DNA from: Candidatus Ornithospirochaeta stercorigallinarum
GTDB taxonomy: Bacteria > Spirochaetota > Spirochaetia > Sphaerochaetales > Sphaerochaetaceae
Assembly (NCBI GenBank): GCA_018711525.1
Contig: DVIF01000046.1
Coordinates: forward strand, 1-58,847
Direction of reading: 5' to 3'
DNA length: 58,847 nt
Shown here piece by piece: positions 45,734-49,083 of the stretch; the stretch's first letter is position 1; every line of letters starts with the position of its first letter. The notes below the pieces were generated by a model. The model did not search any database. It was not told where the DNA came from and worked only from the letters and a program-made list of their open reading frames with translations. The translations under genes were made by a program, and so were the position numbers.

Positions 45734-45754
45734 AAACTACAGTAAGAGGTTCGT

Positions 45755-46702
45755 ATGAAGAGAATAATAACCGCCTTAATCTTATTGCTGTCCATATCCA
45801 GTCTTTTCGCCGTAAACCTGGACGTGACGGTGACAAGCGGCAATTTTGAACTATATGACGCCTACGGCCGAAGATGCGACGGGGTAGCAGTATCTGATCT
45901 AGAGGGTCTCATCGTTCTTACAAATGAAGAAGAAGTTACATTCTCTACCGATTACGGAGATATCATACTTGGTGGAAATTCGATATTCTCTGTTCTCTCC
46001 CTGGATGCTTCAGCCCCTACATTCTATCTGATAGACGGAAAGGCGGGCTTTGACCTGAGAGAGGACATCTACATCCAGGTCTACACTCCTGTGACACTTA
46101 CGGCTTTGAACGAGTCGGGTGTATATGAGATCATCACCACAGATGATGAAGAGGCGATCTACAACTACAGCGCAGACAGTTATGCAAGAAGTCTTGACGG
46201 ACTGAGCGGAATCAGCTACGAGATCTATCCTCAGACATATTCAAGTCTGACGAGGATGGTCGTGAACATCCCGCTTGACCAGGTCGATACACTTCCTCCT
46301 GAGCAGGAGACAAAAGAGATCAGCGTCGAGGATGTTGTTGAAGAAGTGGTTGAAGAGGTGATCAGACCAAAGGAGCCTACAATCATAAGCGTCGAGGGAA
46401 AGCTCAACATCCCTTCAAAGCCGAAACTGGTAGTAAGCGAGACATATCTTCCACCTGTCCCAGAGGCACCTGAGGTGGTTGTAAAGGGATACGAATACAG
46501 CATCCCATCCCCTGCAAGTCTCTCGATTACGAAGCATGAGCTTACAGGCTTTGCAGTTCCTTCCATCCCTTCGATTGAAGTAGAGAGGAAGGTCGAGGGA
46601 GTTCCTGCAAAACCTGATTTCACCAGTGTCACATATGAATCGAACCTCATTGCTCCTGCAGTAAGCGTTTTCGAAGTCGAAAAAAAAACATTGACAGAGT
46701 AG
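45755..46702 (+). CDS. N-terminal segment of a frameshifted exported protein (FecR-like beta domain plus Pro-rich linker)
   Basis: Signal peptide MKRIITALILLLSISSLFA; ends EVEKKTLTE* directly after an A9 tract (46680-46688). The -1 frame continues without stop into the next ORF. Confidence 0.7.
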   Translation: MKRIITALILLLSISSLFAVNLDVTVTSGNFELYDAYGRRCDGVAVSDLEGLIVLTNEEEVTFSTDYGDIILGGNSIFSVLSLDASAPTFYLIDGKAGFDLREDIYIQVYTPVTLTALNESGVYEIITTDDEEAIYNYSADSYARSLDGLSGISYEIYPQTYSSLTRMVVNIPLDQVDTLPPEQETKEISVEDVVEEVVEEVIRPKEPTIISVEGKLNIPSKPKLVVSETYLPPVPEAPEVVVKGYEYSIPSPASLSITKHELTGFAVPSIPSIEVERKVEGVPAKPDFTSVTYESNLIAPAVSVFEVEKKTLTE

Positions 46703-49083
46703 ACCTGCTTTTAAGGACAAGGGCTTATGCGGATAGCGTAAGCGATTCGTTCACACTTACCAGTACATTGATCCCGACATTCCATGTCGGGAATTTTCAC
46801 GCCGCATTCAACATCGATGCGGCCAAGATAATCTCCTACAGCCATGAGTCTCCCATCCTGCCCTTTCTCTCATCGTTCATAAACTCCCTGAACTACAGAG
46901 GAAGATTTCTTACTTTCGACCTCGACAGGTCCACACCCCTTGCAGGAGACAGAGCAGGACTCTTCGAGGGTGTCGTCCACCAGTGGGACGGCCTTGAAGA
47001 GAAGCTGAGCCTGAACTTCATGCTCGATACCGAATTCTTCGACTTCAGAAGCTATGCGGATGACCTTTCGTTCTCAAGCCAGGATGATGATGCCCTGATC
47101 CTCAGCGGCAATGTCCTTTCATTCACACTCTCAAGGGCATGGCCGGTGGAGATCGCATTCGAATTCTTCTCAGCTGTAAGCTATAACAAGAAGGAGAACT
47201 CCACATTCTACCCCATCCTCTTTGTGGATGCACCGCTGGTCAATGTCTCCGACATCTCGTTCGGGCTGAGATTCGGGATGCTTGGAAGGATGAAGAGCCT
47301 CAGCCTTGATGAGTTCATCAACTCCGAGAAGTCATATTTTCTCTCCATCCCCTTTTCCATAAAGGATGACGAGATGAGCCTGGGTGTATACTTCCAGCAT
47401 GACGGGGTCTACTACAATCTTTTCAACGAGAACTATAAGCCCGACACAGAAAGGGACAGCATCGCCGTCTTCTTCGATTCAGACCTCGCTTTCGACCGCT
47501 TCAAACTCAACATAAACACATTCATAAACCTCGACAAGAGCGACCTGAAGCTGATATTCGACAACTCCTATCTGGATGTCGCAGTCTCCTTCAAACTTGG
47601 AAACATAGACTTCCTCATGGGAGCAAGGAAGCAGAACCTCTTTGAATACGATGACTTCCTCTCCACATCCGATTTCTATCTCGGTATGGACCTCGAAACG
47701 GGAAGCATCGTCTCAGAGTTCCTCATAAGATACAAGAACGGACACCCTGAAATAGGTTTTTCCTCCTCTCTGGCTTTCATCGACGTGGACAACAACGTCT
47801 ACAGGGACTACATCCCGGAGAAAATGCTTAGCCTGCAGTTCGACCTCGGATTCGAGAACTACTTCGAGGCAGGACTTTATTTCAACATCAGCCCTATCCT
47901 TACATTCAAAAACGATGATCTCATCCTCTCTTTCAGGATCCCCATCTATCTTGAGCTTCTTGATGGAAGCATGAGGATGGTATCTTTGAAAGCAGACCCA
48001 TGGTTCGACATGTGGAGGAAGAACGACAGCATCGAGGATGTATATGACTCGGTCACAGACATCTTCTCCCTCATAGAAAGGATATCCATCGGCAAGAGCG
48101 AAGACTCCATATTCTATATTGACGCCTCCAGGGATGAGAGGAAGAGTGATGTATTCTTTGAGAACTACTCATCCTTTGATGCACTGAGCCTCAACATGGG
48201 GTTCAATTTCTACAACCTCGACTTCGGCATCTATGTCGATGATATGGAGAGTCCGAGGATAATCGACCCGTATTTCTCATTCTATCCCATAAATGATGCG
48301 AATTTCTCATTCAGTCTGAGCGCACCTACAGAGCTCATAATGAAGGACATGAGGAACTTCTCCCTCCGCTCCTTTTTAGGCTTCACATACACCCAGCCCT
48401 TTTTCAATGAGCGCCTTGCCTTCAGCTTCTTCCTCTATGGGGAGACATATGCCGAGTATGTTGATGGAACGCCGGTAAAGACCACTGTCATCTATGATTT
48501 CGAGAATATGGAGCTCTATGGCTATCTTCTGGGAGGAGAGCTCAGATGGGATGATGATGTCTTCTCATTCGGCATCAACGGGGGCATACACTCCGGCTCG
48601 CTCTACCCCAACTACTTCAATGCATTCTCATCCCTCAATCCCGATATGGACCGCAGTGACGACAAGATAGAAGGCTTGAGCTACTATGCTATTGCAGAGA
48701 CATCTCTGAGCCTTAGGAACTTCAGGTTCCTCATCCGCTACAGTCTGCCGAACATAGTAGCACTGATTGAAAACCCGTCTGCATACAAAGGGGACATGTT
48801 CACACTCGATCTGGAGTTCACACTCCATAACGGCATTGGAATGCATCTGGAACTTTCAAAGCTCGATTTCATCTCATCATTCTCCTCCCCTGACAACCTT
48901 GAGGCATACATGAACAATGAGAATACAATATACTCTGCATCGCTGACGAAGGATTTCGACAACATGAGCCTTGAAGTCGAACTGAGCACTGTGGCAATCT
49001 ATGAGGAGAGCGGGTATATAAACTCCTACAGGCTCAAGGAAGTCTCCCCGAGGCTCAAGATAAATTCCAGGATCGGATTCTGA
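46681..49083 (+). CDS. C-terminal beta-barrel segment of the same gene (reached by -1 shift at A9)
   Basis: From the A9 tract the -1 frame reads KKNIDRVDLLLRTRAYADSVSDSFTLTSTLIPTFHVGNFHAAF...; the track start 46768 is TTG with no SD; alternating beta pattern and C-terminal Phe (INSRIGF) as in outer-membrane barrels. Confidence 0.7.
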   Translation, partial: KKNIDRVDLLLRTRAYADSVSDSFTLTSTLIPTFHVGNFHAAFNIDAAKIISYSHESPILPFLSSFINSLNYRGRFLTFDLDRSTPLAGDRAGLFEGVVHQWDGLEEKLSLNFMLDTEFFDFRSYADDLSFSSQDDDALILSGNVLSFTLSRAWPVEIAFEFFSAVSYNKKENSTFYPILFVDAPLVNVSDISFGLRFGMLGRMKSLSLDEFINSEKSYFLSIPFSIKDDEMSLGVYFQHDGVYYNLFNENYKPDTERDSIAVFFDSDLAFDRFKLNINTFINLDKSDLKLIFDNSYLDVAVSFKLGNIDFLMGARKQNLFEYDDFLSTSDFYLGMDLETGSIVSEFLIRYKNGHPEIGFSSSLAFIDVDNNVYRDYIPEKMLSLQFDLGFENYFEAGLYFNISPILTFKNDDLILSFRIPIYLELLDGSMRMVSLKADPWFDMWRKNDSIEDVYDSVTDIFSLIERISIGKSEDSIFYIDASRDERKSDVFFENYSSFDALSLNMGFNFYNLDFGIYVDDMESPRIIDPYFSFYPINDANFSFSLSAPTELIMKDMRNFSLRSFLGFTYTQPFFNERLAFSFFLYGETYAEYVDGTPVKTTVIYDFENMELYGYLLGGELRWDDDVFSFGINGGIHSGSLYPNYFNAFSSLNPDMDRSDDKIEGLSYYAIAETSLSLRNFRFLIRYSLPNIVALIENPSAYKGDMFTLDLEFTLHNGIGMHLELSKLDFISSFSSPDNLEAYMNNENTIYSASLTKDFDNMSLEVELSTVAIYEESGYINSYRLKEVSPRLKINSRIGF

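Follow-up and report, generated by a model that had tools for sequence, protein, structure and literature searches.

The window, which is the whole stretch of 58,847 nucleotides analysed here (contig DVIF01000046.1, from Candidatus Ornithospirochaeta stercorigallinarum), includes only one run of at least nine A or T nucleotides, an A9 at 46680-46688. The run lies close to the end of an ORF on the forward strand (45755..46702, 315 aa), which has a Shine-Dalgarno-like AAGAGG (45744..45749) 5' of its ATG. The sequence confirmed that the 0-frame reads GTC GAA AAA AAA ACA TTG ACA GAG TAG, as recorded in the initial annotation. However, the distance from A9 to the TAG that closes this frame (46700..46702) is 11 nt rather than nine. 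An open -1 frame extends from 46639 to 49083 and, as had been described, leads into the ORF at 46768. An in-frame A_AAA_AAA heptamer is present within A9 as noted previously, and either one additional A or a -1 shift at A9 would read E-K-K-N-I-D-R-V-D... and generate a fusion of 1,109 aa, close to the 1,110 aa originally estimated. The third frame, which would be entered from an mRNA with A8, is closed immediately by a TGA (46692..46694). The ORF at 46768 had been considered to lack a good start. Among the 100 codons with which the -1 frame begins, only the TTG at 46768..46770 could serve as a start, and it is absent from relatives. A scan for promoters and terminators revealed nothing exceeding shuffled sequences.

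The upstream ORF was said to encode a signal peptide, a FecR-like domain and a Pro-rich linker, and the sequence, the AF2 model and Foldseek agree on this. The signal peptide was called from reading the sequence. Residues about 23-180 (45821..46294) form a well predicted FecR-like fold in the AF2 model, and this fold was matched by Foldseek to 4m0h, 4m0n and 6ovk with a probability of 1.00 and a TM-score by target of 0.45-0.47. The resemblance is structural only, as the FecR models of Pfam and NCBIfam gave no family at E<=1 for the upstream part, and sequence searches of Pfam, NCBIfam and PDB found no family for either half. Unlike the FecR of cell-surface signalling, to which it is similar in fold, this domain has no visible inner-membrane anchor or anti-sigma N-terminus, and would be exported and tethered to a barrel. 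It is followed by a Pro-rich linker (46295..46681) that is predicted by AF2 to be disordered and, on comparison with relatives, is very variable in length but has a conserved (E/Q)KK end at A9.

The downstream part, 798 codons in the -1 frame past the slip point (46687..49083), is predicted to be a large antiparallel outer-membrane beta-barrel (AF2, pLDDT 84.5) with the C-terminus ...RIGF, in keeping with the barrel ending in Phe that had been proposed. The best Foldseek matches were to LptD, TonB-dependent receptors, AlgE and MOMP. All were generic, with low overall TM-scores, and though the fold resembles many outer-membrane barrels, Foldseek did not match it to a specific solved family. In the AF2 model the first beta-strand (46696-46734) begins three residues past the slip point, and A9 thus marks the boundary between linker and barrel.

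Homologs were sought in 48 genomes of the genus and found in 40. One assembly per species was used, and the comparison is therefore blind to variation in run length within a species. One entry (L031) is the same assembly as that of the window (L001), and L010 and L011 are close to one another. An identical A9 and an identical -1 split are seen at the same place in 11 genomes (L001-L008, L010, L011 and L032), in which the barrels are between 100% and 34% identical; the count of As in sibling genomes, suggested as a check in the initial annotation, was exactly nine in all of them. The remaining homologs for which the upstream part could be read, other than the A9-bearing L009 described below, each consist of one uninterrupted ORF with the same architecture and no such run. 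In about 20 relatives both parts are found within one continuous ORF, and the finding that would have refuted a single gene, namely orthologs in which the two parts are independent genes with their own starts, was not encountered. Essentially no hidden slippery sites with a nearby -1 stop were found in the continuous orthologs. In the tree, all twelve A9 rows of the genus fall on one side of a branch with support of 100/100.

The twelfth of these rows, L009 (G032), has A9 at the same junction but in the in-frame phase, and the long form is the unslipped product. In G032, slippage would yield the short form and the roles of the slipped and unslipped products would be reversed.

A family-wide profile search of 139 genomes retrieved ten orthologs from a sister genus, and the four for which the flank was read adjoin mutL. 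The same -1 split is present in all ten. Five of them carry A9 in a different codon phase (CTA/ATA/GCA AAA AAA AAC) with a stop that is immediate or one codon further on. The other five (L158 and L171-L174) are without a run, and each has, where the two frames overlap, a single in-frame X_XXY_YYZ heptamer, C_CCT_TTC, located 33 nt 5' of the stop in four of them. C_CCT_TTC is a classical ribosomal -1 motif, and in Escherichia coli UUN A-site codons and all-pyrimidine heptamers are among the more shift-prone classes (PMC4066793). Downstream of it, simple folds were no better than those of shuffled sequences, though pseudoknots are outside this type of folding. Ribosomal shifting would be the natural reading for these orthologs even though no stimulator was found. 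When the tree is labelled as A9, C_CCT_TTC or continuous, four changes are needed in all, suggesting that the slippery signal was probably exchanged more than once in evolution. As branching within the sister genus is poorly resolved, the tree does not fix the direction of these changes.

In four of the C_CCT_TTC orthologs (L158, L171, L172 and L174), a segment about 30 nt past CCCTTTC, TGGTG...CCCTGGGTGAC.GTG, is strongly conserved at the nucleotide level where the frames overlap. This may reflect either dual coding or an unrecognized stimulator.

A gene interrupted by a run of As tends to be put down as an assembly error, a pseudogene or a phase-variable locus. A single A missing from the assembly had been raised as a possible cause here, and more generally the split could be an assembly error or a fresh indel in a gene that is truly continuous or dead. 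Homopolymers are error-prone, and the more distant relatives are continuous. However, the split gene is present in 21 genomes across both genera (16 at A9 and five at the other slippery sequence) with saturated synonymous divergence, and the frame is intact and constrained across 798 codons. Because the same A9 split recurs in 11 genomes of the genus that have diverged from each other and in five of the sister genus, an error or decay is excluded, and a genus-wide artefact or pseudogene is ruled out; we give this explanation practically no credence.

Simple sequence repeat phase variation had also been put forward. In that case changes in the length of the run in the DNA would toggle the barrel and the assembled genomes would all represent the off state. 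A run of nine As is of sufficient length for slippage during replication, and the product is a surface protein, but the run is exactly nine in all 17 A9-bearing genomes of the two genera, never A8 or A10, and is out of frame in 16 of them, which disfavours this explanation. Moreover, a non-repetitive heptamer replaces the run in five orthologs with the -1 relation unchanged, and the off-frame barrel remains under purifying selection. Phase variation is accordingly very improbable.

The extent of this selection was assessed using the six closest species, whose synonymous divergence is at or close to saturation (pS 0.66-0.76). In the 26 codons of the -1 frame that separate A9 from the first possible start, dN/dS is about 0.26, and this stretch thus behaves as if translated in the barrel frame. 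Hence, as judged from substitution patterns, the barrel frame is under purifying selection upstream of any start codon. This bears on the possibility that there are two separate proteins, with translation of the barrel beginning at an internal start of its own or re-initiating past the TAG. The TTG at 46768 could be used in this way, but a protein begun there would have neither the first beta-strand nor a signal peptide. No internal start is conserved, and several species lack any start codon for 70 codons or more past A9. Among the relatives compared, the junction also has no conserved Shine-Dalgarno sequence and no conserved stem-loop or hairpin detectable by simple folding, which does not include pseudoknots. 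An internal start was rejected because none is conserved and the first strand would be lost, and separate translation of the barrel is hardly credible.

A9 together with the C that follows it (46689) is, at 10 nt, the longest invariant stretch of the gene in the 11 genomes, and the next longest is 5 nt. Of the 1,305 third positions, no more than 14 are invariant. Lys codons inside the run are AAA in 22 of 22 cases, though AAG makes up 60% of the Lys codons gene-wide. As the species are related, no formal probability was attached to the observed invariance. In the 17 A9 genes, the unslipped frame closes 1-8 codons past the run and the third frame 1-13 codons past it (within 6 in 16 of the 17); the background P(<=4) for closure of a frame is about 0.22.

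The retention of the split at A9 in 16 genomes and the use of another slippery sequence in five relatives make purposeful slipping very probable. The proposal in the initial annotation, that A9 divides one exported FecR/beta-barrel gene whose parts are rejoined by a one-base slip, is supported by the conserved split and by the predicted folds. We consider it likely that programmed frameshifting at A9 allows one gene to make two proteins, with slippage of RNA polymerase the most likely cause, but there are no RNA, protein or read data. Normal decoding of an A9 mRNA would stop four codons past the run and yield a FecR-domain protein that is secreted into the periplasm and has an unattached Pro-rich tail. 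With one A added by slippage of RNA polymerase on A9, the ribosome would enter the -1 frame on the resulting A10 mRNA (A13 would also be suitable) and produce the protein of 1,109 aa, whose FecR domain and linker are attached to an outer-membrane beta-barrel. An A8 mRNA would meet an immediate stop and again give the short form. As A10 would lead to the long form and A9 or A8 to the short one, slippage would set the ratio of soluble to outer-membrane-anchored FecR. In the part of the sister genus with C_CCU_UUC, ribosomes would most likely make the same -1 join at that site. It is inferred that both products are made and that slippage at A9 is by the polymerase and not by the ribosome, and their ratio and any function are likewise inferences. 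A need for the short form is deduced solely from conservation, and in many relatives the continuous protein is the only one made.

The same two products could be made by programmed -1 ribosomal frameshifting at the A_AAA_AAA inside A9. This heptamer is in frame in all cases and is common at the frameshift sites of IS1- and IS3-family elements (PMC4066793), and the C_CCT_TTC orthologs indicate that a ribosomal-type -1 signal can serve this gene. It cannot be formally excluded, since every A9 contains A_AAA_AAA in any phase. However, nine As are kept where seven would be enough for a ribosomal heptamer, and A_AAA_AAG does not occur in any of them even though AAG is the more frequent Lys codon. 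Both of the non-barrel frames, the third frame included, close quickly past A9. The absence of a conserved Shine-Dalgarno sequence or, as far as simple folding shows, of a stem-loop, and the finding of A9 in all three phases in dnaX (see below), also count against it. In addition, the genome of the window includes a tRNA-Lys(CUU) besides tRNA-Lys(UUU), a condition that a review ties to the use of polymerase slippage in Thermus (PMC5009743). On these grounds a ribosomal shift at A9 appears unlikely. Transcriptional slippage, one of the options originally listed, is favoured at A9 but is not proven.

Related cases are known. In Shigella mxiE, transcriptional slippage is likewise required to join two ORFs into a long protein (PMC1088944), but mxiE encodes a regulator and has a U run, whereas the gene described here encodes an envelope protein and is found in two genera with alternative signals. 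In Citrobacter rodentium tssM, an envelope protein is also made in a long and a short form through transcriptional frameshifting, which is reported to rescue one prematurely interrupted gene (PMC4256274), whereas the split in the barrel gene is long conserved and its signal replaceable. Searches of the literature on slippage or frameshifting together with spirochaetes, Treponema or outer-membrane proteins found nothing on this gene. Only open-licence papers were covered and an earlier description is possible. The A9 barrel gene is very probably a recoded envelope protein conserved across two genera, though the recoding itself is inferred in the absence of expression data. The comparative data point to a conserved two-product surface-protein gene, and recoding would then decide the location of a protein, periplasm or outer membrane. 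The orthologs, with A9 in two phases, A9 in frame, C_CCT_TTC or a continuous ORF, are a natural series in which the polymerase and the ribosome can be tested against each other.

Recoding with a swappable mechanism is already known from dnaX. In Thermus thermophilus, transcriptional slippage at an A9 in dnaX makes gamma (PMC1088944), while for tau and gamma E. coli uses ribosomal frameshifting at A_AAA_AAG (PMC1088944, PMC5009743). Like the barrel gene, dnaX has A9 in an interdomain linker and two products with a common N-terminal part, its orthologs use either polymerase slippage or a ribosomal shift, and the other frames are closed right after the site. The two differ in that the slipped mRNA would give the long product in the barrel gene (G032 excepted) and gives the short one in Thermus dnaX, and in that the isoforms of the barrel gene would differ in location, periplasm versus outer membrane.

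Other genes with A9 were checked via pattern matches in three genomes, considering only the matches listed (30 loci in two of the genomes). Among these, A9 is found deep in a long, convincing coding frame only twice in the genome of the window, in the barrel gene and in dnaX, and these are also the only coding A9s common to the three genomes. In the dnaX of the genus (L062-L091), A9 is present in the tau/gamma linker in 18 of 30 loci and in all three codon phases, and at the A9 loci both slipped frames are mostly closed within a few codons. By these features it is a Thermus-type slippage dnaX in spirochaetes. The copy in the genome of the window, which has A9, is G000:C77 (L056).

In the sister genus, the dnaX of eight of 12 genomes (L183-L186, L188, L189, L191 and L193) includes CCCTTTTGA, with an in-frame C_CCT_TTT followed by GA (CCC TTT TGA). 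As GA follows directly, a -1 shift would terminate at once, and C_CCT_TTT is a candidate ribosomal -1 site for gamma, unlike the A_AAA_AAG of E. coli. As A9 and CCCTTT-type signals are seen in both genes, the two signals of the barrel gene are, at the genus level, the two of dnaX. At the species level they do not match in G205, G246 and G248, where A9 in the barrel gene is paired with CCCTTTT in dnaX. From this parallel it seems that the same change of mechanism can occur in an unrelated gene. We lean towards the view that recoding sets the division between soluble periplasmic and barrel-anchored FecR and that, as in dnaX and with the same two devices, the recoding machine was swapped in evolution (polymerase slippage at A9 versus a ribosomal shift at C_CCU_UUC) with the two-product output preserved.

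A9 was found in three other long coding frames, L107 and L108 (both G017) and L122 (G035), each in one genome only. Two are of unnamed type and one is queA-like, and these are possibly incidental slippage sites.
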